From an uncultured Clostridia bacterium (GTDB lineage Bacteria > Bacillota > Clostridia > UBA1381): 64,000 nt of DNA. The notes beneath the pieces are model-generated. The model saw only the letters and a program-made list of their open reading frames with translations, was not told the DNA's origin and did not search any database. Location: assembly GCA_947624485.1 (NCBI GenBank), contig CANQKM010000002.1:124001-188000 (forward strand). The letters are read 5' to 3'. Made by a program: the position numbers and the translations under genes. Shown one piece after another: positions 1 to 58,800 of this stretch (positions within the stretch are counted from its first letter, which is position 1; each line of letters starts with the position of its first letter).

Positions 1-1137
1 ATACATACCTTCCTCGGCGGCGACATAAACAAGGCGGGCGCGATGCTTTTTGATAACAATCCGCTCTCGATGATTTGCTCGATGATATGCAACCACGAGA
101 AGCAGTGCCAGGGACACTGCGTGCTGAACCACAAGGGCGCGCCGGTGCATATTTCGAGTATTGAAAACTACATATCGGACAACTATTTCGACAAGCTCAA
201 ATTCCCCGAGATAGAGAAAAACGGGATGCGCGTCGGCATAATCGGCTCAGGCCCCGCCGGGATAACGATAGCGATGATACTCGCGCGGCGCGGCTACGAC
301 ATAACGGTGTTCGAGTCAAAGGAAAAAATAGGCGGCGTGCTTCAGTACGGCATACCGGAGTTCCGCCTGCCGAAAACGATACTCGCGCGCTACAAGCGCA
401 AAATGTGGGAAATGGGCATAAAAATACGCCCGAATACGTCAATAGGCACAACGATAAGCATTGACGACATGTTCCGCGACGGCTACAGCGCGATATTTAT
501 CGGCACAGGCGTATGGAGACCGAACACGCTCCACATAAAGGGCGAAACGCTCGGCAACGTGCATTACGCGATAAACTATCTCACAAATCCCGACGTGTAC
601 CGCCTCGGCGAGACGGTGAACATAATCGGCGCGGGCAACAGCGCAATGGACGTCGCGCGTACAGCACTTCGTCACGGAGCGCGCACGGTGCGCGTATTCT
701 CGAGAAGCGACCACCTTGCCGCAAGCGAGCGCGAGGTCGATTACGCGAAGATTGACGGCGTTGAATTTATCGTACACGTAGAGCCGGTGGAGATAGTGGA
801 CGAGGGCGCGATATTCGTTGAGCTTGAATGTGACGGCAAAGGCACGCTCACGCCGATAAAAGGCACGGAAAGCCTGTACGCCGCCGACAGCACGATAATC
901 GCGATAAGCCAAGGCCCGAAGGACAGAATAGTATCAACCACGTCGGGACTTGAAGTAAACGACAAGGGACTGCTTGTCACGAACACCTTCGGCGAAACGA
1001 CGCGCGACGGCATATTCGCGTCGGGCGACGTGGTGCGCGGTGCGAAAACGGTAGTCGAAGCCGCGGCGTACTCGAAACAGGTCGCCGACGCGATGGACAA
1101 ATACATGCAGGGACTTATGAAGGAAAGCGACCAGTAA
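1..1137 (+). CDS. GltD-like NAD(P)/FAD oxidoreductase, 5' truncated by window
   Basis: The reading frame is open from base 1, so the gene starts upstream of the window. The protein resembles the small subunit of glutamate synthase and related Fe-S flavoprotein reductases, which pass electrons from NAD(P)H through FAD. Visible features in order are a cysteine cluster (CSMICNHEKQCQGHC) typical of the N-terminal 4Fe-4S-binding region, an FAD-binding GSGPAG motif, the family signature YGIPEFRLPK, a second nucleotide-binding motif GAGNSAMDVA for NAD(P)H, and a C-terminal FAD-contact segment FASGDVVRGAKTVVEAA. The true partner and substrate cannot be told; homologues act as GltD, as NfnB-like subunits or as stand-alone reductases. 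It ends 23 bases before a strong bidirectional terminator shared with the convergent L,D-transpeptidase gene. Confidence 0.85.
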   Translation: MHTFLGGDINKAGAMLFDNNPLSMICSMICNHEKQCQGHCVLNHKGAPVHISSIENYISDNYFDKLKFPEIEKNGMRVGIIGSGPAGITIAMILARRGYDITVFESKEKIGGVLQYGIPEFRLPKTILARYKRKMWEMGIKIRPNTSIGTTISIDDMFRDGYSAIFIGTGVWRPNTLHIKGETLGNVHYAINYLTNPDVYRLGETVNIIGAGNSAMDVARTALRHGARTVRVFSRSDHLAASEREVDYAKIDGVEFIVHVEPVEIVDEGAIFVELECDGKGTLTPIKGTESLYAADSTIIAISQGPKDRIVSTTSGLEVNDKGLLVTNTFGETTRDGIFASGDVVRGAKTVVEAAAYSKQVADAMDKYMQGLMKESDQ

Positions 1138-1160
1138 TCCCCCAATTATACAGCATAACA

Positions 1161-1190
1161 AAAACAGCGTTCCGATCGGAACGCTGTTTT
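1161..1190. terminator. Bidirectional rho-independent terminator
   Basis: This is a perfect 30-base palindrome, AAAACAGCGTTCCGA and its complement, with an A-run on one side and a T-run on the other. It lies between two convergent genes and should stop transcription both ways. Confidence 0.9.
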
Positions 1191-1194
1191 CCTT

Positions 1195-2577
1195 CTATTC
1201 CGTTATATACACCCTCGTCCTGAACGGCACATTCGCGGCGATCCAGTTAATATCCGACGGGTGAAGTCTCACGCAGCCGTGCGAGATATTCACGCCGACG
1301 CGTCCGTCGTATTCGCCGCCGCCGTAATAGAGCAGCGTGGAATGGAGCGCGTAGCCGTTATAGAAACGCAGCACCGGGCCCACATAATACGTGCCGTAAT
1401 CCCACTGTGTACGCTCTATGATCTCAAACTGCCCCGTTATCGTCGGCGTATCCCACGCGCCGAGCGCGCACGGGTACTCCTTAACGAGCTTCCAGTTATA
1501 CTGCTGCCCCTCGTAAACCCTCACCTTATATTCATGCTTTGAAACCCAGATAAGATAATTCGTACGGCTTCCGATACCGTCGCGGTTCACGGGTATTCTG
1601 TTCATAAGCTCGCGGTAATACGGCGCCTCACCTATCAAAATATCCATAAACTCGCCGTAATCCGTAACCTCGAGCGGACACTCGAACGCCTCCGCCAAAT
1701 CCCTTACCGGCACAAACAGCGCCCCCTCGATATACACGGGCTTATGCGACGCATTTTTATCGCCGCCGGGGTACGCCATATACTCGTTATTCGCCCAGAA
1801 CACCGTCTTATGATCCTCGATCGACAGCGTAACACTGTCCCATTCGCCGTTATAGTCAACGTCAAGCCCCATAGCATCACCCACGGCTCTGACCGGCATC
1901 ATCGTAACGCCGTCAACTATTCTCGCGTGCGGCTCTATGTCGTTGTACCACTCGTCCGTAATATACATATGTATTTCTTTTTCATACTCCGGATTCGCGT
2001 CGAGCGACACGCCGTTACACTGCACATACTCGCCGTTTTCATCGAGGTAGCCGTACGTCTGAACCTCTATCGTATCGCCGGACTGCGCCTGCTGACCGTA
2101 ATACCATATCGACCTTAAACCGCTCACAAGCTTAACCTTGAATTTCTCGCCCATTCTGTACTGCGGCACGTCGAATACCATCTGCACCGCCGGCGTGTCC
2201 CAGCCGACATACCGCAGACACGAGCCGAGCAGCTTATCGTTCATATCGTAAAGCTCGATAACCGCGTTGTTTGAGATTATGTACTTGCGGTGCGTGACTG
2301 CCAGATTTATCACAAACTGTGTCGAAAGCTCCTTATCGGGAACAGCCTCTGTTTCGGGCAGCGCTGTGGGCGCCGCTGACGACTCCGGCGTCTCTGTCGG
2401 CTCTGCTGACGGTTCAACGGCCGGCGAAGCGGAAGGCACGGGCTGCGTACTTTCCGTTACCTGCGCGTTTTCGGGCGCGGGCGTGCTTTCCGGCACAGGA
2501 GTAGGTTCGGGCGCGGCGAACGCCAAAGACGATGTTAATGTGCAAAACGCGATAAACGCGGTAAGAAATTTTTTCAT
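1195..2577 (-). CDS. Secreted L,D-transpeptidase (YkuD) with stalk domain
   Basis: Predicted peptidoglycan cross-linking or surface-anchoring enzyme of 460 residues. The start is the ATG at 2577 behind a GGGGGAA ribosome site; longer frames upstream lack this. A signal peptide (MKKFLTAFIAF, cleavage near AFA-AP at about residue 21) is followed by a Pro/Glu/Thr/Ser-rich linker (22-80), a beta-rich region, a copper-amine-oxidase-N-like stalk domain (roughly 200-310, with MMPVRAVGDAMG and FVPVRDLAEAF motifs), and a C-terminal YkuD domain (roughly 330-460). The YkuD active site HGCVRLHPSDI carries the nucleophilic cysteine. The same stalk domain recurs in the PL11 lyase at 55.9-59.4 kb. Single gene with its own promoter, divergent from the chromate-transporter pair. 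Confidence 0.9.
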   Translation of the reverse strand: MKKFLTAFIAFCTLTSSLAFAAPEPTPVPESTPAPENAQVTESTQPVPSASPAVEPSAEPTETPESSAAPTALPETEAVPDKELSTQFVINLAVTHRKYIISNNAVIELYDMNDKLLGSCLRYVGWDTPAVQMVFDVPQYRMGEKFKVKLVSGLRSIWYYGQQAQSGDTIEVQTYGYLDENGEYVQCNGVSLDANPEYEKEIHMYITDEWYNDIEPHARIVDGVTMMPVRAVGDAMGLDVDYNGEWDSVTLSIEDHKTVFWANNEYMAYPGGDKNASHKPVYIEGALFVPVRDLAEAFECPLEVTDYGEFMDILIGEAPYYRELMNRIPVNRDGIGSRTNYLIWVSKHEYKVRVYEGQQYNWKLVKEYPCALGAWDTPTITGQFEIIERTQWDYGTYYVGPVLRFYNGYALHSTLLYYGGGEYDGRVGVNISHGCVRLHPSDINWIAANVPFRTRVYITE

Positions 2578-2611
2578 TATGCTGTTCCCCCGTAAATTTT
2601 TTGATATTATA

Positions 2612-2640
2612 ATAATAGCATATCCGTAAAACTTTTGCAA
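2612..2640 (-). promoter_or_regulatory. SigA-type promoter for the L,D-transpeptidase
   Basis: TTGCAA (2640-2635), 17 bases, TATTAT (2617-2612) on the minus strand, about 35 bases upstream of the ATG. Confidence 0.6.
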
Positions 2641-2661
2641 GATGAAAGATAAATTCCTTGA

Positions 2662-2690
2662 TTGACGTACGGCGGAAAATAATGTATACT
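2662..2690 (+). promoter_or_regulatory. SigA-type promoter for the chromate-transporter pair
   Basis: TTGACG (2662-2667), 17 bases, TATACT (2685-2690), 24 bases before the first ATG. Confidence 0.75.
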
Positions 2691-2713
2691 GATACAAAAG
2701 GGAGTGGGGGAGT

Positions 2714-3280
2714 ATGAAACGCGGAATCAAAACATATATAACGCTTTTTTTATCGACGCTGCGCATAAGCGCGTTCACATTCGGCGGCGGTTTTGTTATA
2801 ATACCGATGCTCAAACGTCAGTTCGTGGACGTGCTGCACTGGCTTGACGAGGACGAAATGCTCGACCTCGTTGCGATAGCGCAGTCAACGCCGGGCGCGA
2901 TAGCCGTAAATGCGTCGGTGCTTATAGGCTACCGTATAGCGGGAATCGCGGGCGCGGTAACGACCGCGATAGGCTCGGTGCTTCCGCCGCTCGTCATACT
3001 CGCCGTAATATCCATGTTCTACACGGCGTTCCGCGACAACACCGTTGTCGGGTATGTCTTAAAGGGTATGCAGGCGGGCGTGTGCGCGGTAATAATAGAC
3101 GTTGTGATAACGATGGCATGGAACGTGATAAAGGATAAGCGCGTGTTCCCGATATGCATTATGGCCGCGTCGTTTATCGCGGCGTTCGTGTTTGAGATAA
3201 ACGTAATGTATATCGTGATAGTCTGCGGACTTGTGGGCGTGACGTTCATGCGCCCGAAGAAGGGAGACGGCGCGCAATGA
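2714..3280 (+). CDS. Chromate-transporter family (CHR) short-chain protein, first of pair
   Basis: Membrane protein of 188 residues, one CHR domain. Short-chain CHR proteins occur as tandem pairs that together correspond to the fused ChrA; the family is annotated as chromate (or sulfate-like anion) transport, but the substrate here is unknown. The CHR signature FTFGGGFVIIPML lies at about residues 19-31, followed by a QSTPGAIAVNASVLIGYR segment and several hydrophobic helices. ATG at 2714 has a GGGAGTGGGGGAG ribosome site. It overlaps the next gene by four bases (ATGA), which suggests translational coupling and equal expression of the two halves. Confidence 0.88.
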   Translation: MKRGIKTYITLFLSTLRISAFTFGGGFVIIPMLKRQFVDVLHWLDEDEMLDLVAIAQSTPGAIAVNASVLIGYRIAGIAGAVTTAIGSVLPPLVILAVISMFYTAFRDNTVVGYVLKGMQAGVCAVIIDVVITMAWNVIKDKRVFPICIMAASFIAAFVFEINVMYIVIVCGLVGVTFMRPKKGDGAQ

Positions 3281-3831
3281 TTTATCTTCGGCTTTTTCTC
3301 TCGTTTTTCCAGATAGGACTGTTCAGCTTCGGCGGCGGCTATGCCGCGATGCCGCTTATACAGCACCAGCTTGTGACGCTGCACGGGTGGCTCAATATGA
3401 CCGAGTTTTCGGACATAATCACAATTTCGCAGATGACGCCCGGACCGATCGCCGTCAACGGCGCGACGTTCGCAGGAATACGCCTCGCAGGAATAGGCGG
3501 CGCGCTTGCCGCAACATTCGGCTGCATACTGCCCTCGACCGTCATAGCGATAATACTCGCGAAGCTGTATTACAAGTACCGCGGGCTGTCGTTTATGAAG
3601 GGCGTAATGAACGGTCTGCGCCCCGCCGTTGTGGCGATGATAGCGTCTGCCGGACTGTCGATACTTATGCTCGCGCTTTGGAACGGCGCGTTCGACATAA
3701 AAAGCACCGACCTTATCGCGGCGGGAATATTTTTAGCCGCGCTGGCAGTGCTTCGGATATTCAAAATTGACCAGATATGGGTAATGCTCGCCGCCGGCGT
3801 CCTCGGCGCGGTGCTGTACGCTCTCGTGTAA
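3277..3831 (+). CDS. Chromate-transporter family (CHR) short-chain protein, second of pair
   Basis: Second half of the CHR pair, 184 residues. It repeats the domain pattern of its neighbour: FSFGGGYAAMPLI near residues 13-25, QMTPGPIAVNGATFAG near 46-61, then alternating hydrophobic segments to the C-terminus. In characterised pairs the two proteins have opposite membrane topology and are both needed; that is family knowledge, not visible here. The start overlaps the stop of the first gene (ATGA at 3277). The gene is followed at once by two palindromic repeats. Confidence 0.88.
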   Translation: MIYLRLFLSFFQIGLFSFGGGYAAMPLIQHQLVTLHGWLNMTEFSDIITISQMTPGPIAVNGATFAGIRLAGIGGALAATFGCILPSTVIAIILAKLYYKYRGLSFMKGVMNGLRPAVVAMIASAGLSILMLALWNGAFDIKSTDLIAAGIFLAALAVLRIFKIDQIWVMLAAGVLGAVLYALV

Positions 3832-3860
3832 TAAGAGAGGTGCCGCCGCGCAGCAGCACC

Positions 3861-3924
3861 GTAGGGGCGGTCATCGGCCGCCCGACATGCACAATTAAAA
3901 CGGGCGGACACGGTTCGCCCCTAC
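3861..3924. repeat. Nested palindromic repeat, 64 nt
   Basis: Outer arms GTAGGGGCG (3861-3869) and CGCCCCTAC (3916-3924) enclose inner arms CCGCCCG (3878-3884) and CGGGCGG (3901-3907). It resembles the small dispersed GGGGCG-type palindromes common in Clostridia. No open reading frame of note. Confidence 0.65.
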
Positions 3925-3927
3925 GGG

Positions 3928-4040
3928 AGGCTCCCCTTGAGGGGAGCTGTCGCCGAAGGCGACTGAGAGGTGGTTTTAAAAATTTATTGCCACCTCTCCG
4001 TCATTTGCTGCGCAAATGCCACCTCCCCTCGAGGGGAGGC
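3928..4040. repeat. Palindromic dispersed repeat, copy 1 (113 nt)
   Basis: Several hairpins in series: CTCCCCTTGAGGGGAG, GTCGCCGAAGGCGAC, GAGAGGTGG paired with CCACCTCTC, an AAATG-type stem, and a terminal CTCCCCTCGAGGGGAG. A second copy with the same architecture is at 48838-48949. The whole folds back on itself and looks like a small non-autonomous element. Confidence 0.85.
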
Positions 4041-4103
4041 ATACGATGTGCGCCGCTCTACATATGACCCCTTCATAGAGGGGGGTCTGCTTACGCCCCG
4101 TAC

Positions 4104-4421
4104 TTACAGCACCGCATCGAGCGCGTCCTCGTAATCCTCGATAGGGTGCGCGCCTATTATTTTTTTACTCACCTTACCGTCCACGAAAATAATAACGGTC
4201 GGAATGGACACGACCGCGTTCATAGCCGCGATATCGCCGCACTCGTCGACATTCACCTTGCAGACCTTTACCCTGCCGTCGTACTCCTCGGCGATCTCCG
4301 ATATTACGGGGCCCACCATTCTGCACGGGCCGCACCACGGCGCCCAGAAATCCACGAGTACGGGCTTGTCCGCCTTCAATACCTCGCCGTCATATGTTGA
4401 GCTTGTAAGATTTATTTCCAT
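4104..4421 (-). CDS. trxA: Thioredoxin
   Basis: Cytoplasmic disulfide reductase of 105 residues, the usual length of the family. The active site WCGPC has its cysteines at residues 30 and 33, and the cis-proline loop reads SIPT. Start ATG at 4421 has a GGGAGGTAAAGGAA ribosome site. It is the last gene of a tight minus-strand group, 19 bases after the anchored protein at 4441-5079, and is followed by the palindromic repeat region. No thioredoxin reductase is in the window. Confidence 0.95.
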   Translation of the reverse strand: MEINLTSSTYDGEVLKADKPVLVDFWAPWCGPCRMVGPVISEIAEEYDGRVKVCKVNVDECGDIAAMNAVVSIPTVIIFVDGKVSKKIIGAHPIEDYEDALDAVL

Positions 4422-4440
4422 TTCCTTTACCTCCCGAAAT

Positions 4441-5079
4441 TTATCTGTAATCCGGTATGCTTGTAAATATTCTGTTCACAGAGCCGGAATTATATACGGT
4501 TCTTTCAACGTAGCCGCCGTCGGCTTTTGTGTACTGCGTAACGACCGTTCCCGCGCCGGACGAGGCGTAAACCGTCACAATAACGTCTCCGTTATCGCGC
4601 GTCGCCGCGTCGCAGTAGACCATTCCGTTTGAGACAAGCTGATCGTAGAGCGTGTAGAAGCCGCCCTCGCCGTCGTCGATCTCAACGACCCATTTCTGAC
4701 TGTCGTCCCACAAAAATCCTTCGCTGTCCTTTTCGGCTGACGTGTATACGGTGAGCGTTCCGCTGTTTTCGGGCAGCGCGCTGCCGGCTACTCTTGTCCA
4801 AATTCCCTCGCTTACAGCCGACGCGCCGAGCTTTGACACCGTTCTTTCGGCTGCGCCTTCAACGTCGTCGGGCGGCGCGGGCAGTTCGGGAGGAACATCC
4901 TCGGACGGAACGTCTCCGTCTGACGGGACTGCGGTCGGCACGGTGACGGATTGCTTCGGACTTGCCGTTTCAAGTCCTCCGTTCATTCTGTCGGAATACC
5001 TCCGTCCCACGTAAAATCCGCCTGCGGCAAGGACCACAGCAAGTATTACCGCTCCCGCGCCCTTGAAAAATCTTTTCAT
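4441..5079 (-). CDS. Membrane-anchored extracytoplasmic protein, unknown function
   Basis: Unrecognised protein of 212 residues. One hydrophobic segment at about residues 8-24 (GAVILAVVLAAGGFYVG) after a short basic N-terminus suggests a signal anchor; no lipobox cysteine is seen. Residues 35-75 are Pro/Ser/Asp-rich, a likely wall-spanning linker, and the rest is a small soluble domain with alternating hydrophobic residues and a single cysteine. It overlaps the gene upstream by four bases (ATGA) and sits 19 bases before thioredoxin, so all three are probably co-transcribed. The function cannot be assigned. Confidence 0.7.
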   Translation of the reverse strand: MKRFFKGAGAVILAVVLAAGGFYVGRRYSDRMNGGLETASPKQSVTVPTAVPSDGDVPSEDVPPELPAPPDDVEGAAERTVSKLGASAVSEGIWTRVAGSALPENSGTLTVYTSAEKDSEGFLWDDSQKWVVEIDDGEGGFYTLYDQLVSNGMVYCDAATRDNGDVIVTVYASSGAGTVVTQYTKADGGYVERTVYNSGSVNRIFTSIPDYR

Positions 5080-5726
5080 TCTGCTTCCTCCTCTGACTTT
5101 ATATCAACATATTTTTTATCGTTTTTTTTGATTTCACAGCCGGCGTTCGTGAGGTTTACCAGGCTTTCCGTCACGCGCTCCGTCTCGTTTACCGGCACGG
5201 AGATTACGAACGTGACGTTGTCGGCGTAAACCGTGTCGTCCAGAATGTAGCCGCGCGACATTATCTCGTGCTGCATTTTTCCGAGCAGCGTGTACGGAAC
5301 GGTCACCGACAGTATATCGCACAGCGCGCGGTTCACGATACGCGACTTTATAAGCCCCGCGCTTGCGGAGGCGCCGTAGGTATGCACAAGTCCGCCCGTA
5401 CCCAAAAGTGTGCCGCCGAAATAGCGCGTCACAACGACGATAACGTCCACAATGCCGCGCTTGCGTATCGCGTCAAGCACCGGCATACCCGCCGTACCCG
5501 AAGGCTCTCCGTCGTCGCTGTAGCGGTAGATGTTGTTTTCATCTATGACGTAAGCGTAAACATTGTGCGTCGCGTCGGGGTATTTTGATCGTATCTCGCT
5601 CAAAAATCCGAGCGCGTCCGTTTCATTGTCAACCGGCTTTACATTGGCTATGAATTTTGATTTCTTTTCCGTGAGCAGACTTTCCGTCCGCTCCGCGACC
5701 GTTTTATATATTTCCTTCTTCGACAT
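5076..5726 (-). CDS. YigZ/IMPACT family protein
   Basis: Member of the UPF0029/IMPACT family, 216 residues. The N-terminal IMPACT domain (about 1-125) shows the signatures SKFIANVKPV, YSDDGEPSGTAGMPVL and VVTRYFGGTLLGTGGL; a ferredoxin-like DUF1949 domain follows (about 135-205). Homologues include YigZ of E. coli and eukaryotic IMPACT, linked to translation or the GCN2 pathway, but the bacterial role is not settled. The start codon overlaps the hflX stop (TAATG) and the stop overlaps the next gene by four bases, so it is translationally coupled on both sides. Confidence 0.92.
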   Translation of the reverse strand: MSKKEIYKTVAERTESLLTEKKSKFIANVKPVDNETDALGFLSEIRSKYPDATHNVYAYVIDENNIYRYSDDGEPSGTAGMPVLDAIRKRGIVDVIVVVTRYFGGTLLGTGGLVHTYGASASAGLIKSRIVNRALCDILSVTVPYTLLGKMQHEIMSRGYILDDTVYADNVTFVISVPVNETERVTESLVNLTNAGCEIKKNDKKYVDIKSEEEAE

Positions 5727-6985
5727 TATACCAGGTATTTCTTTATCTTCACGTATGTTTCCGCGTCCACGCGAAGCTCCATAACCGTGCCTTTTTCGCC
5801 GTAGCTTTCGCTGTCGACCTTCTGCGTGTCGTGCAGCAGGTTTACGAGCGAACCCTCGCTGTACGGTATGCAGACCTTGACGCGGCGTTTCCTGCCCGGC
5901 GCGGTTTTTGCGATAGCGTCGATGAGCGTGTCGATCTGCTTGCCGTAGCGCGCGCTTATGTATACGCTCTTGTTGGCTCTGGGCGACGCCGACGCTTTAC
6001 CCATTGTGAGGTCGCACTTGTTGAACACCGCCACAACGGGCTTTTCGCCCGCGCCGATTTCCTCAAGAACCTGCTCGACCACCTTTACCTGATTGTCGGC
6101 TTCGGGGTTGGACGCGTCTATTACGTGCAGCAGCACGTCCGCGAGCGCGGCTTCCTCCAGCGTGGACTTAAAGGCTTCTATGAGGTGGTGGGGGAGCTTT
6201 CTGATAAAGCCTACGGTGTCTATAACGATTATCTGTCTGTTGTCGTCGAGCGTTATCGCGCGCGACGTGGGATCGAGCGTCGCGAACAGCTTGTCCTCGG
6301 CGAATACATTTGCGTCCGTGAGCGTGTTCAGAAGCGTCGATTTTCCCGCGTTGGTGTAGCCGACGAGTGCGGCTGTGATTACGCCGTCCTTTTTGCGGCG
6401 GCTCCTTAAAAGGTCGCGGTGCTTTTTAAGCTCCTCGATTTCCTCCTCGAGCGCGTTTATCCTGCGCTGTATGTGCCGCCTGTCCGTTTCGAGACGCGTT
6501 TCGCCGGGGCCTCTCGTACCGATACCCGCGCCGGTACGGCTCATTTCCGCGCCGAAGCCGCGGAGTCTCGGCAGACGGTACTTAAGCTGCGCAAGCTCCA
6601 CCTGGAGCTTACCCTCGCCGCTTTTCGCGCGCATCGCGAATATATCGAGTATCAGCATGGAACGGTCAAGCACCTTAACGCCGAGCATATCCGTTATGTT
6701 GCGCAGCTGCACCGGCGAAAGCTCGTCGTCGAACACGACAGTGTCGGCGTTAAGACTTATTACCGCCTCTTTAAGCTCCTCCAGCTTGCCCTCGCCCATA
6801 TACGTTCCGGCTTCGAGGTCGGCTTTGTTCTGTATCATTTCGCCGACTACCTCACCTCCGGCGGTCTCGACAAGCTCGCTCAGCTCTTTTATGCTCTCGC
6901 GCGTCGTGTCCATAAGAGCGTCGCGCAGATCGCGGTGTACGCCCGCGAGTATTACCCTTTCGCGCTTATCCGTCGTATTTTCCAT
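5726..6985 (-). CDS. hflX: Ribosome-associated GTPase HflX
   Basis: GTPase that binds the 50S subunit and rescues or splits stalled ribosomes, 419 residues. An N-terminal HflX domain (about 20-110) precedes a linker with the family motif SRTGAGIGTRGPGETRLE, a coiled segment, and the G domain with P-loop GYTNAGKST, the DTVGFI switch region and NKCD base-recognition motif. The ATG at 6985 is chosen because AAAAGGTGA ends five bases upstream; the in-frame GTG at 6994 lies inside that ribosome site. First gene of the group hflX, yigZ-type, anchored protein, trxA. Confidence 0.95.
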   Translation of the reverse strand: MENTTDKRERVILAGVHRDLRDALMDTTRESIKELSELVETAGGEVVGEMIQNKADLEAGTYMGEGKLEELKEAVISLNADTVVFDDELSPVQLRNITDMLGVKVLDRSMLILDIFAMRAKSGEGKLQVELAQLKYRLPRLRGFGAEMSRTGAGIGTRGPGETRLETDRRHIQRRINALEEEIEELKKHRDLLRSRRKKDGVITAALVGYTNAGKSTLLNTLTDANVFAEDKLFATLDPTSRAITLDDNRQIIVIDTVGFIRKLPHHLIEAFKSTLEEAALADVLLHVIDASNPEADNQVKVVEQVLEEIGAGEKPVVAVFNKCDLTMGKASASPRANKSVYISARYGKQIDTLIDAIAKTAPGRKRRVKVCIPYSEGSLVNLLHDTQKVDSESYGEKGTVMELRVDAETYVKIKKYLV

Positions 6986-21282: not shown

Positions 21283-24192
21283 ATGAACACAGAGACAACA
21301 TACCTTGACGGCGCGAAATGGATAGGCTCGCCGAAAACCACGTCCAATACCGACTGGGTGGACGCGTACGCGGTGACCGCCGATTTCGAGATAATAAGCT
21401 CGCAGTCGGCGCATATTGCCGTAGCCGCGCGCAACAAGGATTTTTATGTGCATATAGAGATAAACGAGAAATTTGCCGCGGTGTCGGAGGTCTATGACGG
21501 CGTTAAAAGTCTGTGCGGCAAATATTACATGAGCGGCGTGCTTGCGGAAAAGAACCGCGTCCGCATCGAGGTAAACAGGACGCTTATCACGCTGATTTTG
21601 AACGGTGAGACGATCATTAACGGCGAGGACATAATGCCGCGCGACCGCCCGAACAAGCCGCGCAAGGCGCACATGATGTGCTTCGGACTGCCGCAGCGCG
21701 AGGGCGAGGTACATTACGGCTGCATAAAGCTCGAAAACACGTACAACGGAGAGGTGTACCGCGAAAGCTCGTTTGCCGATGATACGGACGTGCTTTCGCA
21801 GCTCGGAACGGTAAAGGACGGCTGCCTTGTCGTAAAGGAGGAGTTCAATCTCATAAACCCCGTGCCGCCGGTGACGGTGAAAAAGGAGTTTACGCCGCGC
21901 GGCGCGGTAAAAAGCGCGTATCTTTACGCCACCGCGCGCGGTTTTTACGACGCGTACATAAACGGTGAGCGCGTGAATGACACGTTCTATAACCCCGGCT
22001 TTACCGATTACCGCAAGCGCATTTATTATCAGACGTACGACGTTACGGATATGATAAGGGACGGCGTGAACACCGTCGGCGCGACCGTCGCGAAGGGCTA
22101 TTACTCCGGCTTTGTCGGCTACAGCGGAGCGATGGTGTACGGCAGGCAGAACACGTTTTTGGGCGCACTCGCGGTCGAGTACGAGGACGGTACGCGCGAC
22201 GTGATAAAGACCGATGAAACGTGGCTTTTTACCGACCGCGGCGCGGTCATTGACGCCGACTACCAGCAGGGCGAAATGTACGACGCGCGGTACGAGCTTG
22301 ACATTAACGGGGACAGTAAAGTCTGGACGGGGTGCGGCGCGTACGAGTACCCGAAGTACGCCGTTCCGACTAACGGCACGCTCGAAAACGAGCCGTTTGA
22401 GCTTGACTCGGAGCCGTCGGGCGGCGCGGTGCGGGAGAGGACGCTCAAACCGACGGGTGAGGCGTATGAAAATCCCGAAGGTCATTTCGTTCTTGATCTC
22501 GGTCAGAACATGGTCGGCACGGTGCGCGTCGTGATGAACGGCAGGCGCGGCAGGTGCATAAAGCTGCGCTACGGCGAGATGTGCTACAGTGACGGCAGAA
22601 TTTACAACGAAAATTACCGCAACGCCGCCAACATTGACATGTATACGATGAAGGGCGGCAGAGAGGTGTTTGTGCCGTCGTTCACTCTGCACGGCTTCCG
22701 GTACATAGAGGTAAGCGGGTGCGGCGAGCAGCTTACGCGCGAGGATTTCGACGATATGATAGTGAGCGTCGAGGGCGTTGTCATAACGAATACGACCGAG
22801 GTGACAGGCTCGTTTGAATGTTCAAATCCCGATATAAACAAGCTTTACGAAAATATCCTGTGGGGGCAGCGCGGCAACTCCGTCATGACGTTTACCGACT
22901 GCCCGCAGCGCAACGAGCGTATGGGCTGGACGGGAGACGTGCAGGTGTTTGCGAAAACCGCCGCGTACAACATGAACATAAAATCGTTTATGGAGAAGTG
23001 GCTCACCGATCTGCGCGACAGTCAGCTTATGTATAACCGCGGCGGCGCTGTTCCCGATACCGCTCCCTTGGGCGGCGACAACCGTCCAAACGGCGGCTGT
23101 GACGGCTGGGGCGACGCGGCTGTGATTGTGCCGTGGGAAATGTATAAGGCGTATGGGGACAGTAAATTTCTGTCGGACAATTACGGCATGATGAAAAAGT
23201 GGGTTGATTATCAGCAGCTGAGTGAAAACCAAACTGACTTTATACAGCGCCGTCAAAGGCGCGGCGACCACCTCGCGCCCGACGTTACAACGCCGATAAT
23301 TCTTTCGGCTACCGCCTACGCGGCGAACAGCGCGAATATTTTATCGCGCGCGGCTGATGTTTTGGGGTACGCGGACGACGCGGAAAAGTACCGCGCGCTT
23401 TTTGAGAATATCAAGGCGGCGTTTCAGAGAGAATGGGTAGGCGAGGACGGTCAAATTTTATATGTCCCCGAAAGCGGGGACACTAAAAATGACAGAGACC
23501 TTGAATTAAACGGGGACACTAAAACTCGCAATAATGGGGACACTAAAGCTGACTGTGGGGACACTAAAGTCAACGCGAGTCAGACGGCGTACGCGCTGGC
23601 GATAGATTTTGACCTTTTGGACGGTGTGAAGGAGGGTACGCGCGAAGGGTTCAGAAAGGCGCTCTCCGATTGGGACAACAGGCTGTCGGTGGGATTTCTG
23701 GGGATTTCGCACCTTTTGAGCGCGCTCGTGAAAGCGGGTATGACTGATAGGGCGTTCGCGCTTTTGGAAAGCACGGAGTACCCCGGCTGGCTCTACAGCG
23801 TCCGCAACGGCGCGACAACCGTCTGGGAGCGGTGGAACAGTTACATTGCGGAAACGGACACCTTCGGCGATTTTAATATGAATTCGTTCAACCACTACGC
23901 CTACGGCTCGGTGGGTGAGTGGCTTTATTCCGATATTCTCGGCATAAATACGTCGGAGGAAAAGGGTGAGACGGGGTATAAAAAGATCATACTGCGTCCG
24001 ACGCGCGGCGGTTCGCTCACGTACGCGAGGGGCAGTCTGAAAACGCAATACGGCGTTATTAAGTCGGAGTGGAGCGTCGAGGGAGACAGGTTCAGGTACC
24101 GCTGCTCCGTTCCCGAAAACACGACGGCTTGGCTGTATCTCGAGGGTAAAAAAATCTCCCTCGAATCGGGAGAATATGAATTTGAAATATAG
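21283..24192 (+). CDS. GH78 alpha-L-rhamnosidase with in-frame repeat insertion
   Basis: Removes terminal alpha-L-rhamnose from pectin or glycosides; 969 residues, no signal peptide, so it should act in the cytoplasm on imported oligosaccharides. The ATG at 21283 follows GGGGAAAAG; upstream frame lies in the promoter. N-terminal beta-sandwich regions (KKEFTPRGAVKSAYLYATARG, VTDMIRDGVNTVGATV) lead into the (alpha/alpha)6 catalytic domain with DCPQRNERMGWTGD, CDGWGDAAVIVPWEMY and the C-terminal NSFNHYAYGSVGEWLY and GVIKSEW motifs. Residues about 731-763 are an inserted linker of GDTK motifs encoded by four GGGGACACTAAA repeats, absent from the family pattern I know. It ends at a terminator shared with hisA. 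Confidence 0.93.
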   Translation: MNTETTYLDGAKWIGSPKTTSNTDWVDAYAVTADFEIISSQSAHIAVAARNKDFYVHIEINEKFAAVSEVYDGVKSLCGKYYMSGVLAEKNRVRIEVNRTLITLILNGETIINGEDIMPRDRPNKPRKAHMMCFGLPQREGEVHYGCIKLENTYNGEVYRESSFADDTDVLSQLGTVKDGCLVVKEEFNLINPVPPVTVKKEFTPRGAVKSAYLYATARGFYDAYINGERVNDTFYNPGFTDYRKRIYYQTYDVTDMIRDGVNTVGATVAKGYYSGFVGYSGAMVYGRQNTFLGALAVEYEDGTRDVIKTDETWLFTDRGAVIDADYQQGEMYDARYELDINGDSKVWTGCGAYEYPKYAVPTNGTLENEPFELDSEPSGGAVRERTLKPTGEAYENPEGHFVLDLGQNMVGTVRVVMNGRRGRCIKLRYGEMCYSDGRIYNENYRNAANIDMYTMKGGREVFVPSFTLHGFRYIEVSGCGEQLTREDFDDMIVSVEGVVITNTTEVTGSFECSNPDINKLYENILWGQRGNSVMTFTDCPQRNERMGWTGDVQVFAKTAAYNMNIKSFMEKWLTDLRDSQLMYNRGGAVPDTAPLGGDNRPNGGCDGWGDAAVIVPWEMYKAYGDSKFLSDNYGMMKKWVDYQQLSENQTDFIQRRQRRGDHLAPDVTTPIILSATAYAANSANILSRAADVLGYADDAEKYRALFENIKAAFQREWVGEDGQILYVPESGDTKNDRDLELNGDTKTRNNGDTKADCGDTKVNASQTAYALAIDFDLLDGVKEGTREGFRKALSDWDNRLSVGFLGISHLLSALVKAGMTDRAFALLESTEYPGWLYSVRNGATTVWERWNSYIAETDTFGDFNMNSFNHYAYGSVGEWLYSDILGINTSEEKGETGYKKIILRPTRGGSLTYARGSLKTQYGVIKSEWSVEGDRFRYRCSVPENTTAWLYLEGKKISLESGEYEFEI
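23476..23568 (+). repeat. Four in-frame GGGGACACTAAA repeats inside the GH78 gene
   Basis: Copies start at 23476, 23512, 23536 and 23557. Spacings of 36, 24 and 21 bases are all multiples of three, so each reads Gly-Asp-Thr-Lys. Two near copies, GGGGACAGTAAA (Gly-Asp-Ser-Lys), lie in the same phase at 22309 and 23155. The identical 12-mer recurs at 55784-55849. Confidence 0.9.
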
Positions 24193-53155: not shown

Positions 53156-55003
53156 ATGGCAACAGAAACAAAAAGAGAGCGTTTCGAGAGAATATCGGAG
53201 GCGCGCCGTGAAAAGGTGCTTGACGCGGTAAGGCTGCTCGAAAACTGCTCGAACAAATCAAATTACGATTACAAGCCCGACGAGATAGAGAGCATATTCG
53301 CCGACATAGAGGAAGCGCTTGCCGAGGCGAAGTCAAAGTTTACCGGCAGCGAGAAGCAGCTCGGAATAAAGACGTTTATAAAGGGTTTCCAGGAGGAATA
53401 CACGTGGCTTGCCGGTTTTATGCGCAACGTTGACCGTTTCGCCGACAAGGAAGCTCTTGTGAACCCGTCGTCAGATCAAAGCTGGACGTACAGGGAGCTT
53501 AACGCCGAGGCAAACAAATTCGCCGGCGCGACTCTTAACGCCGGGCTGAAAAAGGGCGACGTTGTGATGTTCCAGCTTCTCAACTGCCCCGAATTTGTGT
53601 TCGCGTACCTTGCGTGCCACAAGACGGGAACGGTAAGCTGTCCGATAAATTTCCGTTTAAGCTCGGGCGAAATCGCCGTGACGATAGAGGACAGTAAGCC
53701 GAAGGTGTTCATATACGAAGCGATGAACAGCGAGGTCGTTGAGAAGGCGCTTAAAATATCGAAGTACAAGCCGGAAACGGTTATTATGGTCGATTCAAGC
53801 AAAGCTGAGCCGATAGACGGCGCGGTGACGTATTCCGAATTTGTGAAGGACGCAAGTACGGAAAATCCGCAGCTTTCATGGAAGCTCTCGACCTACGACG
53901 AAACATCGCGCCTTTACACGTCAGGCACGACCGGCAGACCGAAGGGCGTGTGCCTCACGAGTATTAACGAGGTTTTGAGCGCCCATGACGTAATGATACA
54001 TTTTCCGCTGTCGAGCGACGACAAGACGATGAACACAACTCCGTGGTTTCACCGCGGCGGACTTCACTCCGGCGGCGTAACGCCGACGCTCTACGCGGGC
54101 GGAACGGTCGTAATACTTAAAAAATTCGACGCGGTTGAGACGCTTAAGCGCATAGAAAAGTTAAAGCTTACATTTATAATCGGCGTGCCGAACGTGCTGG
54201 AGCTTTTGACGGACGCGCAGATTAAAAACAACTTCGACCTTTCGAGCCTGAACGGCATAGTAACGATGGGCGCGCCGCTTGAAAGAGCAGCTTGTATGCG
54301 TTATCAGGAGGTGCTTACGCCGAGAATATTCAACGGCTACGGCACTACCGAAACGTTCTGGAACACGTTCCTGCGCCCGACGGAGCTTCCCGATATGGCC
54401 GGTACGGCGGGCAGATCGTGTACCGACGACGACGTTCGCGTCGTAAAGGTGTTCGACGACCGCAACGCTATGCCAGACGAGCTTGCCGACATGGACGGAA
54501 GAGAGGTCGGCGAGGTTATTATAAAATCGTACGCAAAGGGTTCTTACTTCTATTACAGAAACGACGAGGAAAGCGAGAGGAAGTTCAGCAACGGCTTCAT
54601 GTACACCGGCGACCTCGGCACATGGGACAAGAACCGTTTTGTGAGCATCGTCGGCAGAAAGGACGACATGATCATATCGGGCGGTGAGAACATATACCCC
54701 GTGCAGGTCGAGGAGGCGTTAAACACTCATCCGAAGGTTGTTGACTGTATCGTTACCGCCGTTCCCGACAAGACGCGCGGCGAGATCGTGACGGCGTACG
54801 TCGTGAGAGCGGACGAGTCGCTGACTGTCGGCGAGCTTGAGCAGTTCTGCAAGAACAGCCCGATGATAGCGAATTACAAGCGTCCGCGCTACTATCGCTT
54901 TGTGTCCGAAATTCCGCTGAACGCGACGGGTAAAAAGCTCCATTACAAGATGAAGGAAATCGCCCGCGACGATTTGAGAAACGGACTGCTGGTGAGAGTA
55001 TAA
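53156..55003 (+). CDS. AMP-forming acyl-CoA synthetase/ligase
   Basis: Adenylating enzyme of the ANL superfamily, 615 residues, that activates a carboxylic acid with ATP and then usually CoA. P-loop-like YTSGTTGRPKGVCLT, GYGTTE, YTGDLG and the C-terminal lysine in NATGKKLHYK are all present. The first 80 residues are an extra helical region not usual in the family. The substrate cannot be read; the coupled amidohydrolase (TAATG overlap) suggests a ring-containing or hydroxylated acid. Start ATG follows TAGGAGGTAGG. Confidence 0.88.
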   Translation: MATETKRERFERISEARREKVLDAVRLLENCSNKSNYDYKPDEIESIFADIEEALAEAKSKFTGSEKQLGIKTFIKGFQEEYTWLAGFMRNVDRFADKEALVNPSSDQSWTYRELNAEANKFAGATLNAGLKKGDVVMFQLLNCPEFVFAYLACHKTGTVSCPINFRLSSGEIAVTIEDSKPKVFIYEAMNSEVVEKALKISKYKPETVIMVDSSKAEPIDGAVTYSEFVKDASTENPQLSWKLSTYDETSRLYTSGTTGRPKGVCLTSINEVLSAHDVMIHFPLSSDDKTMNTTPWFHRGGLHSGGVTPTLYAGGTVVILKKFDAVETLKRIEKLKLTFIIGVPNVLELLTDAQIKNNFDLSSLNGIVTMGAPLERAACMRYQEVLTPRIFNGYGTTETFWNTFLRPTELPDMAGTAGRSCTDDDVRVVKVFDDRNAMPDELADMDGREVGEVIIKSYAKGSYFYYRNDEESERKFSNGFMYTGDLGTWDKNRFVSIVGRKDDMIISGGENIYPVQVEEALNTHPKVVDCIVTAVPDKTRGEIVTAYVVRADESLTVGELEQFCKNSPMIANYKRPRYYRFVSEIPLNATGKKLHYKMKEIARDDLRNGLLVRV

Positions 55004-55794
55004 TGAAAATCATAGACTTCCACACGCATATCTATCCCGATAAGCTCGCGGTGCGGGGAAGTCAGAGCGTATGCGATTTTTACGGGCTTGACTACCACAA
55101 CACGGGCAGCGCGGACGTGCTGCTTTACGAGGGCAAAAAAGCGGGCATATCCGAATTTGTGCTGCTGCCCGTGGCGGTGAAGGCTGAACACGTGAAAAGC
55201 ATAAACGACTTTACCGCCCGCGAGGTTGGGGAACATGAGGAATTTTACGGCTTCGGAACGGTTCACGCGGAAATGGACAACATGGCGGAGGAGGTCGAGC
55301 GAATATTCTCCCTCGGTTTAAGGGGCGTGAAAATACACCCCGACACGCAGCGTTTTGGCATAGACGACGAGCGTCTTTATCCGATGTATGACGCTGTGCG
55401 CGGTAAAGCTCCCGTCGTCATACACTGCGGCGATCCGAGGTACGACTATTCCGATCCCGAAAGGCTTAGGCGCGTGCTTGACCTGTTTCCCGACCTGTGC
55501 GTGGTCGGAGCGCATCTGGGCGGCTGGTCGATGTTTGACAGGGCGTTCGGGTATCTGAAGGACACAAGCTGCTATTTCGATTTTTCAAGCTGTATGATGT
55601 TCATAGGCGCGGACGAGACGCTCAGATATATACGAGGCTACGGCGCAGACAGGATTGTTTTCGGAACGGATTTTCCGCTGTGGAATATGCCCGGTGAGGT
55701 TGGAGCGTTTATATCTCTCGACCTCACGGACGATGAGAGGGAAAAGATAGCGTACAAAAACGCCGAAAAGCTTCTCGGACTTCGGGGACACTAA
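55003..55794 (+). CDS. Amidohydrolase family metal-dependent hydrolase
   Basis: TIM-barrel enzyme of the amidohydrolase-2/ACMSD-like family (COG2159), 263 residues. DFHTHIYP gives the metal HxH pair, IHCGDPR and GAHLGGW further histidines, and FGTDFPLW the catalytic aspartate. These enzymes decarboxylate or hydrolyse small acids. Translation is coupled to the ligase gene. The last three codons, GGA CAC TAA, are the GGGGACACTAAA repeat, so the present C-terminus was set by repeat insertion. Confidence 0.88.
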   Translation: MKIIDFHTHIYPDKLAVRGSQSVCDFYGLDYHNTGSADVLLYEGKKAGISEFVLLPVAVKAEHVKSINDFTAREVGEHEEFYGFGTVHAEMDNMAEEVERIFSLGLRGVKIHPDTQRFGIDDERLYPMYDAVRGKAPVVIHCGDPRYDYSDPERLRRVLDLFPDLCVVGAHLGGWSMFDRAFGYLKDTSCYFDFSSCMMFIGADETLRYIRGYGADRIVFGTDFPLWNMPGEVGAFISLDLTDDEREKIAYKNAEKLLGLRGH

Positions 55795-55855
55795 AGTTAA
55801 AAGGGGACACTAAAAAACGGGGACACTAAAGTTTAACTTTAGTGTCCCCGTTTTG
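55784..55855 (+). repeat. GGGGACACTAAA cluster forming a terminator palindrome
   Basis: Direct copies start at 55784, 55803 and 55819; an inverted copy (TTTAGTGTCCCC) lies at 55838-55849. The last two form AACGGGGACACTAAAGTT/AACTTTAGTGTCCCCGTT with a T-run, working as a terminator for the amidohydrolase gene and, on the other strand, the PL11 gene. Confidence 0.9.
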
Positions 55856-55868
55856 CATATTGTTTTTA

Positions 55869-58800
55869 TTACTGAACACCCAGAGCCGCGAATTCCGTAA
55901 TCTCGCAGGGCTCGTCGTCGAGCAGCTGGAGCTTAACGGAGTTCGTGTACTTCGGCACGGGGAAGATAAACGTCTGCGCGTCGGTGCTGCCGTCGCTTAC
56001 GGAGTCTATAACGACCTCCCAGCCGTCGCGGTTCGCCATATCCTTAACGTCCTCCTCGGGTATGTCGTAGCGCGTCGATACTCTGAACGGGTGCTTTTTG
56101 CCGTCCGCGAATTTCACGATTACAGCGCTTATGGGCCACTTGTCGGTTTTCATCATAATGATGCCCTTGCCGCTTGACTTCCACGCTGTGCCGTAATCGA
56201 AATCACACGCCAGCTTTCCGTCGCCCTCGCTCGCGTACACCTCAAGGGCGGTCGACTGCGTTCCGGTCATTTTTTCGCCGTTCGTGTACACCTTGCCGCT
56301 TGCCGGCTGCGCCGCCTTCGCGCTCTTAATCGTTTCGAGAGCCGCCTTGTCGTCGATCACCGTTTCAACGTCGCTTACGGTGATAACGCCCGTTTCGCCG
56401 TACCACTCGACCTTTTTGTTTAATGCTTCCGATACGGCTCTTAAAGGAACAAACGTTCTGTCGCTCGTAATCTCCGGCGCCGCGTCCATTGTCTTTGCCG
56501 CGCCGTCAACGGTGTAATCGGTGCTGCCTATCGTCATTACAACGGTCGCCTCGGGACTTTGAACCGTTACCTGCCGCGCGTCAGCGTCCCACGTCACATA
56601 CGCGCCGAACGCCTCCGATATAAAGCGCATGGGAACCATCGTTCTGCCGTTTACGATGTACGGCGCAAGTTCGTTGTTGCCGCCGTCGATGTAGTACGGC
56701 GCGCCGTTAATCAGAGCCTTCGGCTCGTCCGCGGCAAGCTCCGTAACGTCGCCCTCGTAAAGGTCGGAGATGTTCCACTCCTTTTTCGCAAGGTCGGGGT
56801 TCGTTATTTTGTTACCGCTCTCGTCAACCGTGTAAATCTGCGGAACGGGGATAGTTTTCGTGTCGTAGCCGAGGCAGTAGTCAACGTGCGTCGGCTGGTT
56901 GTAGCCCACGTTCTGAACGGCTACAGCGTCGCGGTACTGATTATCCGACATGAGCGTCGGCAGCTTGTAGCTTGTCGGGATCGTCGTCGTGTAAATGCGA
57001 AGCTCCGAGTTGTCGAGCGTCGGGTAGATCACTTCCTCGCGCCAGTCGCCGAGAATATCAGCCGTAAGCGTCGGGTTCGACTTCGCGGAGTTGTTCGAGT
57101 GGCACTCCGTAGCCGAGAATATTTCCTCAACCTTATACGTGTACGGGTTGTATTTTGAAATGTTTACGCCGTCGAGGACTTCGCGTCCGAGGTCGCCGTC
57201 CCACCACGCGAAGAAGTTCGCGGGTATGCTGTAGTTGTCGGTTATAAGGCTGCCGTCCGACGCGATAAGCAAGCCTATCGACGACCAGCTTTCCGCGCCC
57301 TCGTGCGTCGGATCGATGTCGTCGCTGCCGCCGCGTCCCACGTCGAGGCTTGTTTTCGGCGACGACCACAAAATCTCGCCCGTGCGCGCGTCCTTCATCT
57401 GGTGACCGTACTTGCCGCTTTCGTGAACCGAGAAGATTTCAAGTCCGGGGCGCGACGGAACGAGGTCGCCCATGTGCTGCGCGTCGCCGTGCGCCAAATC
57501 AACGTTTGAATAGAGCGGCTCGCCGTTGTCGTCATACGTTGTTGAGCCGTATATAATTTCGTCCTTGCCGTCGTAGTCAACGTCGCCGACGCAGAGCGAG
57601 TGATTGCCCTTGCCGCGGTAGGGGAGGGATTCCTCCTTGGTCATAAAGTCGGTGTCGAAAATCCAGTCGTTTACTATTTTATTGTCAACCATCGAGTACG
57701 CCGCGAGAACGGTCTTGTCGTAATAGCCTCTCGCGAACATCATCGACGGAGTGTCGCCGTTTTCGTAGAACACGCACGCGTTGTAGCGCTCGGAGCGGTT
57801 GCCCCAGTCGTCGCCCCATGAGCTTACGTCCCACTTAACGCCGTCGCGCTCGCCCGTTGTCTGCGGGTAGTAATCCGTCGTGTCGATGACCGCGCCCGTC
57901 TCGCCGTCAAATACGGTGAGGTAGAGCGGACCGTCGAGGTTTTTGCCGATGTCGTTGCGCCAGTCCTTTTTCGGATCGCCTATAACCGTGCCGTCGCCGG
58001 CTACCGTGCCGTCGGCTGTACGCATTGCGACCTCGGCTTTGCCGTCGTTGTTGAAGTCGGCGCAGAGGAACTGCGTGTCGTGCGCGCCGCTGCGGACGTT
58101 AATGCCCAAATCAATTCTCCAAAGCTTTGTTCCGTCGAGCTTGTACGCGTCAAAAAGCGTGTTGCCCGTCGCGCCGGATTGCGAGCTGTCGCGCGAGTTG
58201 GACGAATCCCATTTGAGGATTATTTCAAGCTCGCCGTCACCGTCGAGGTCGGCGGTTGACGCGTCGTTCGCGATATAGAAATATTCCTCCTCGGTTTCGG
58301 GGTTGATCCTCACCTTGCCGCCGGCGGGAACATCGAGCTTAAAGCCGATATAGTCCTTGTCGAGCAGCTTGACTTCCTTGCACTTTTCGCCCTCAGCGCC
58401 GTTTATTACGGGCGCTACCGAATAAGCGTCGCCCGCCTTCGCGTCGTAGTCGATATAATTCGTTTTGTTCATCGGCTCGTCGTTAAGCTTTGTTCCATTT
58501 TTATAAAGATTATATCTCGTGTCCGCGCTTTCCGTTCCGAGCCAGCGCCACGAGATAAAGCCGTATGTCTCGGCAGAAACCGCGACAAGACCTCTGTCGA
58601 GAGTTTCCATTTTGCGCTGCATGTCGGGACGCGCGTCGATAAGCTTCTGCGTCTCGCTGCCGTCCGACACGCCGGTGTGAATCGTCAGCGGCTCGGGATC
58701 GGGCGGTACGTCGCCGATTTCGGTGTAATCGCCGTCGGCAGTGTCGTTTAAAAGTTCCTCGCCGTCAGCCGTTACAACGATGTTGTCAACATACGCGTAA

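Follow-up and report, generated by a model that had tools for sequence, protein, structure and literature searches.

A sharp 12-base DNA word, dispersed through genes and gene ends of an uncultured Clostridia bacterium, is conserved beyond protein need

Why does a gene for a GH78 alpha-L-rhamnosidase hold four exact copies of one 12-mer, GGGGACACTAAA, in a single linker of its protein? The gene is located at 21283..24192 (+ strand) of the window, i.e. the whole 64,000-nucleotide stretch of DNA analysed here, which corresponds to contig C2:124001-188000 of a 2.72-Mb assembly. A preliminary description of this DNA had answered with a mobile repeat of the REP type, which a REP-associated transposase (RAYT) would move and the protein would tolerate as an insert. 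Here, the word was followed from this gene to the whole genome and to its relatives. The genome statistics consist of pattern counts and of selected sequence stretches; the genomes are MAGs of varying completeness, and gene calls are ORF-based.

Results

The linker of the GH78 protein

The carrier ORF showed matches to PF08531, PF05592, PF17389 and PF17390. The four exact copies were found on the + strand at 23476..23487, 23512..23523, 23536..23547 and 23557..23568, with spacings of 36, 24 and 21 bases, and all of them are read in codon phase 0 as GDTK. Two variant copies, GGGGACAGTAAA, at 22309..22320 and 23155..23166 on the same strand, share the phase of the exact copies and encode GDSK; both sets had been correctly described beforehand. 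The first variant (LDINGDSKVW) is identical in four of four close congeners. The second occupies the native YGDxK position of GH78, and at this site an exact GGGGACACTAAA is present in G008 and in G037, a genome of another genus.

By alignment with 22 orthologues and with solved structures, the linker was placed at residues 726-765 (23458..23577, + strand), inside the 6-hairpin domain (PF17389, residues 508-884). This agrees with its earlier assignment to the catalytic region of the enzyme, while its length, previously put at about 30 residues, had to be corrected to 40 (from DGQI to SQTAYA), compared with about 3 in the solved structure 3w5m. The alignment with the orthologues showed that the linker is native and length-variable across the family. 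Exact copies 2 and 4 are kept in four congeners. Copy 1 is kept in G011 and G010 and is one base off (GGGGGCACTAAA) in G008, and copy 3 is present in G011, displaced in G008 and absent from G010. Within the clade of this genome, three or four copies occur in the linker and their arrangement differs between orthologues that are 91-97% identical; in G037, seven copies, two of them variants, are distributed along the gene. Read from these sequences, the linker is a native variable loop that has been colonised by copies of the motif.

Abundance and range of the word

The exact GGGGACACTAAA was counted 151 times in the 2.72-Mb genome, compared with 0 for the reversed control, and the 12-mer is indeed a genome-wide repeat, as had been suspected from the window. 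When one mismatch was allowed, the count was only 189 (control: 7), a rise of 25% over the exact count, which indicates that the word is sharp. In the window, 11 matches with up to two mismatches were observed where 3.1 were expected, and 0 of 100 shuffles reached this number. In 400 kb of contig C1, GGGGACACTAAA was by far the most enriched 12-mer, with 15 copies where an order-5 Markov model predicts 0.01. At 154 of the 167 GGGACACTAAA sites, the word is followed by A or G as its 13th base; the extended form of the word is GGGGACACTAAAR, and GGGGACAGTAAA is tolerated.

All 15 congeners carry the word, in 8-143 copies, and 0-53 copies were counted in the sister genera. Outside the family, which is one of uncultured gut Clostridia, it falls to chance level and is virtually absent (sample of 391 genomes of the class). 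At L141, in a close relative, six copies are spaced like those in HypE/HypD of this genome. No rival enriched 12-mer, which would represent another 'dialect', was found in motif-free relatives (200 kb of G017 and 182 kb of genus g15). In IMG/VR, the 14-base extended word was detected in 61 contigs, whose hosts are not known, with one match per contig; as the viral contigs gave single matches only, a motif-dense phage or virus was rejected as the source of the word. In G009, two of the nine copies lie in phage head-tail-like genes (L448, G009:C25:65500-67500), one of them in VDTGTLKNSI, and are a possible exception to the presumed absence of the word from phage DNA.

Strand, reading frame and clustering

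About 130 copies were classified by means of ORF calls and a codon-usage score, with about 20 copies on small contigs left unplaced. Coding copies amount to 60 in 26 genes, 56 in sense and 4 in antisense orientation. Stops interrupt the word in two of its six reading frames; the copies observed use the other four (in sense orientation GDTK and GTLK/N, in antisense FSVP and LVSP). Antisense coding use concerns TrpC, TrpA, cobD and cbiP, TrpA being concerned in two genera and cobD and cbiP in genus g4; inside genus g1 alone, the conservation of antisense copies does not reach significance (10 codons per pair, P about 0.1). At L432 (G037:C1:29821-29949), four copies in antisense orientation are read in frame as four FSVP motifs in the linker of a CbiA/CobB-type protein, an arrangement that mirrors the GDTK linker of GH78.

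The 70 intergenic copies form 23 clusters, 15 of which include an inverted pair. Among these pairs, 13 are located between convergent genes, and a 2-bp spacer, found in 13 of the 15, results in a palindrome of 26 bp. Additional intergenic copies are found on one side only and are co-oriented. At L077:3290-3335, L101:2128, L105:2384 and L137:1841, copies abut a start codon (GGGGACACTAAA-ATG), and their G run could act as a ribosome-binding site.

The copies are strongly clumped, since 96 of them occupy 31 five-kb bins where 85 were expected. Their density is bimodal, with 1-2.5 copies per kb in carrier genes and operons and zero in most of the genome. U32, GH78, trp, altronate dehydratase, the FGGY kinases and the cob operon are carriers in several genera, with motif positions that are mostly different. 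For the cobalamin operon, about 20 copies (variants included) were counted here, the situation is similar in genus g4, and four or five positions are in common. In the cobalamin operons of two genera (L137, L138, L428, L429), about one motif per kb occurs throughout, and the positions mostly differ. In G037, mutL and mfd contain five copies each (L430, L431; G037:C63 and C149). For the DNA uptake sequences (DUS) of the Neisseriaceae, an enrichment in genome maintenance genes has also been reported.

The intergenic array at 55784-55849

The palindrome noticed at 55784-55849 was confirmed to be made from the same 12-mer, of which three copies are direct and one is inverted. The first direct copy (55784..55795, +) contains the stop codon (55792-55794) of ORF 55003-55794, and the second (55803..55814, +) is located between convergent genes. 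The last two copies form the left arm (55819..55830, +) and the inverted right arm (55838..55849, -) of a perfectly complementary 20-nt inverted repeat. The corresponding hairpin, predicted at 55814..55854 (no strand assigned; -30.3 kcal/mol, z -8.8), scores as terminator-like and is flanked by the convergent genes 55003-55794 (+) and 55869-59441 (-). The word is used on either strand and, between convergent genes, also makes up terminator-like palindromes.

Replacement of native sequence at coding sites

Eight carrier genes, picked for carrying the motif in this genome (HydF, HypE, HypD, TrpC, TrpF, TrpA, U32 peptidase and GH78), were aligned with their orthologues in as many as 22 genomes. 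The motif is length-neutral at 20 of the 27 coding sites, where at least half of the motif-free homologues align without a gap. HydF provides an example of the motif in place of native sequence (GCGCATACTCTTAAT versus TCGGGGACACTAAAA). The LVSP of TrpA is encoded by CTTGTATCACCG in a non-carrier and by TTAGTGTCCCCG in carriers, and the GDTK of HypE by GGAGACACTAAG in a non-carrier and by GGGGACACTAAA in carriers. Changes of length were observed only in variable loops, namely the GH78 linker, a U32 loop and HypD, in which an in-frame gain of 18 bp brings a second copy. True in-frame gains of length are confined to these loops, and the 20 length-neutral sites contradict the idea of the 12-mer as an insert.

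Furthermore, sites common to different genera are identical at 12 of 12 bases, and the identity of their flanks is about 60% right up to the motif edge. The copying of longer patches between genera was rejected, as the flanks remain flat near this value. With replacements that are mostly length-neutral and with a sharing between genera confined to the 12 bases, the spread of a REP-like mobile repeat, as initially suggested, was not supported.

Selection on the DNA letters

Between this genome and four congeners, 318 codons lying wholly within motifs were compared. Of these, 311 are identical, and not a single synonymous change was found, whereas the same codons outside the motifs of these genes predicted 122.8; since the congeners share ancestry, these expected changes do not represent independent events. 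When single congener pairs were considered and GH78 was excluded, every pair showed 0 synonymous changes versus 25-28 expected. Four of the seven changes in motif codons are C8G, which gives GGGGACAGTAAA. At column 211 of the TrpA alignment, GGGGACAATAAA is conserved in five of five congeners of genus g1, and position 8 of the motif may accept more bases than C and G. Similar results were obtained in another genus: every motif codon of the G018 cobalamin region recurs unchanged in G033 (44 of 44; 22.7 expected), and in the reverse comparison, from G033 to G018, identity was found for 48 of 58 (29.9 expected).

The preliminary description took a linker conserved with unrelated codons as the sign that the protein sequence and not the DNA is selected. 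Such a linker was not seen, and on this point the description was right. The opposite was observed for TrpA (LVSP) and HypE (GDTK), where relatives encode the same peptide by unrelated codons and carriers converge on the exact 12-mer. Motif codons free of synonymous change, together with 12 identical bases set in flanks of about 60% identity, indicate that selection acts on the DNA and not on the peptide. In the genes tested, it is well supported that GGGGACACTAAA is a DNA-level signal maintained by selection.

Transposases, ComEC and gene trees

Y1_Tnp domains (PF01797) were searched in this genome and in 60 related genomes. The 12-mer does not lie beside either Y1 transposase of this genome, and inverted 12-mers flanking the RAYT-like ORF or the IS200-type tnpA were not found. 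The latter (L031, G000:C5:150656-151012; 161 aa) has no 12-mer in the surrounding 3.3 kb. The RAYT-like ORF (L106:2287-2826, G000:C11:6786-7325; 179 aa, MPNHVHM motif) contains two in-frame copies of a separate repeat, GGGACGTCGAGGGCGCCGTCCC (protein GTSRAPS), with which it looks like a classical REP/RAYT pair, distinct from the 12-mer. The presence of Y1_Tnp matches did not follow the abundance of the motif: seven relatives with 27-59 copies have no match, and the motif-free G017 and G021 have several. RAYT was rejected as the agent, as no link was found in this genome and the 60 related ones. In addition, a GTAG/CGTC tag beside an imperfect palindrome of 20-40 bp was not found in the motif flanks, the unit being an asymmetric 12-13-mer.

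The ComEC channel is present in 65 of 70 genomes of the family and does not separate motif-rich from motif-free genomes; being nearly universal, it was rejected as a discriminating gene. In gene trees of five congeners, HypD, TrpC and TrpF conflict with comEC, and TrpA agrees with it. As the internodes are short, this conflict hints at recombination at most.

Discussion

By comparison with known systems, GGGGACACTAAA would belong with the dispersed DNA words that are under selection; it is DUS-like in several respects, and membership of the DUS can at most be inferred. The DUS of the Neisseriaceae (ATGCCGTCTGAA and its dialects; PMC3630211, PMC2397512) are likewise sharp 10-12-mers, restricted to a family, with intragenic copies and with inverted pairs that form terminators (PMC2397512, PMC3630211, PMC2346458, PMC5031613). 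Allowing one mismatch increases the count of kingDUS by 21% (PMC3630211), compared with 25% for GGGGACACTAAA. New copies where relatives have unrelated sequence and an orientation bias in coding sequence are also shared with DUS (PMC2346458). As for DUS and for uptake signal sequences (USS), intragenic copies of GGGGACACTAAA are conserved past protein need (0 versus 122.8 synonymous changes, with a second genus in agreement), and its inverted pairs at gene ends are putative terminators. However, GGGGACACTAAA is unrelated to DUS in sequence, its host is Gram-positive, and its role as a label is presumptive. It has 8-151 copies per genome versus roughly 900-5900 for DUS, and it is strongly clumped in particular genes instead of being spread over most of the genome. 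The USS of the Pasteurellaceae (AAGTGCGGT; PMC1626085, PMC5031613) is also a short word dispersed over coding and intergenic DNA, with inverted pairs acting as terminators, but GGGGACACTAAA differs from it in sequence and has far fewer copies, and its role in uptake is putative.

Other repeats are less similar. HIP1 of cyanobacteria (GCGATCGC; PMC4390886) is a short word over-represented in many genomes of one lineage; it is far more frequent, and it is a palindrome tied to orphan methyltransferases (PMC4390886), whereas GGGGACACTAAA is asymmetric. The REP/REPIN and RAYT systems (PMC2817692, PMC3733652) resemble it by more than 100 copies per genome, by inverted pairs, by sites between convergent genes and by a few intragenic copies. 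In contrast to them, GGGGACACTAAA has neither a flanking RAYT nor the GTAG/CGTC tag, its selection is base-perfect, and about half of its copies are coding, as length-neutral replacements.

The palindromic elements of Rickettsia place a repeat-derived peptide in otherwise ordinary proteins as longer in-frame inserts. The unit of GGGGACACTAAA is 12 bp, and most of its sites are without an insert.

By analogy with DUS and USS, we tentatively propose that GGGGACACTAAA is an uptake or transfer label. For sequence-specific uptake, a review lists two families, both Gram-negative, the Pasteurellaceae and the Neisseriaceae (PMC5031613); with the same reserve, the word might be the first such label in a Gram-positive host and the third independently evolved tag system. 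A candidate DNA receptor, presumably a component of a competence pilus, would prefer DNA that contains the word; through homologous recombination between relatives, alleles in which the word is exact would then gain an advantage and be kept. Copies would accumulate and be locally amplified in permissive protein loops, those in which GDTK, GTLK, FSVP or LVSP is tolerated. The low copy number and the clumping speak against the label, and its receptor is only presumed, which keeps the proposal a guarded one.

The main rival to the uptake label is a chromosomal protein with sequence specificity, be it a nucleoid organiser, a silencer or a regulator. It would bind groups of 2-6 sites within or close to particular operons, with positions that turn over and target genes that persist. 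The constraint at the DNA level and the clumping agree with such a protein, as does the fact that the cob operon, trp, U32, GH78 and altronate dehydratase are carriers across genera with differing positions; the recurrence of the same carrier genes with shifted positions fits a local function or a local amplification as well. We nevertheless consider this explanation rather unlikely, because the carriers have diverse functions (rhamnosidase, trp, hydrogenase maturation, cobalamin, MutL, Mfd, kinases) and the sites occur throughout coding sequence and at gene ends, without promoter specificity.

A signal in RNA, with GGGGACACUAAA as an mRNA word recognised by an RNA-binding protein or active at ribosome-binding sites or 3' ends, appears improbable. 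It would account for the excess of sense over antisense coding copies (56 versus 4), for the co-orientation of the extra intergenic copies with the neighbouring gene and for the several copies immediately 5' of a start codon. On the other hand, part of the strand bias can be explained by GDTK and GTLK being more loop-friendly than FSVP and LVSP. Moreover, antisense copies are kept (TrpC, TrpA in two genera, cobD and cbiP in g4), a small sample that nonetheless points to DNA and not to RNA, and the CbiA linker of G037 contains an antisense array of four FSVP.

An import of the carrier genes from an unsampled lineage with a motif-dense genome would explain the bimodal density, yet it is most improbable. 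The carriers diverge among congeners like the non-carrier comEC (identical-codon fraction of 0.73-0.90 versus 0.74-0.84) and their codon usage is host-like (r 0.96), which indicates that they were not imported recently; on the same divergence, a recent transfer of carriers from one congener to another was rejected. No motif-dense donor was found among 391 genomes of the class and 70 of the family, and the decay expected after import is absent.

Finally, the REP-like mobile repeat of the preliminary description, although in keeping with the many copies, the inverted pairs downstream of genes, the RAYT-like gene and the in-frame gains in HypD and the GH78 linker, can hardly be upheld in view of the lack of insertion at most sites, the unflanked transposase ORFs, of which the RAYT-like one holds another repeat, the motif-rich relatives devoid of Y1_Tnp, and a selection on standing copies that is unexpected for scars of transposition.

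In the literature searched, no genome-wide DNA word that overrides codons was found described for Gram-positive gut bacteria. The 11- or 12-mer occurs there in four papers, in some orientation, but, as judged by titles, never as a bacterial genomic repeat. A genome-wide word that overrides the choice of codons is rare. For annotation, the strings GDTK, GTLK, FSVP and LVSP in carrier proteins should be regarded with caution, as they are imposed by the DNA and not by protein function. If GGGGACACTAAA is a chromosome-binding site, it implies a protein, organising or regulatory, that has yet to be described. Should it be an uptake tag, it would make sequence-directed gene exchange testable in an anaerobic gut community, and would provide a third case in which to ask why bacteria label their own DNA.
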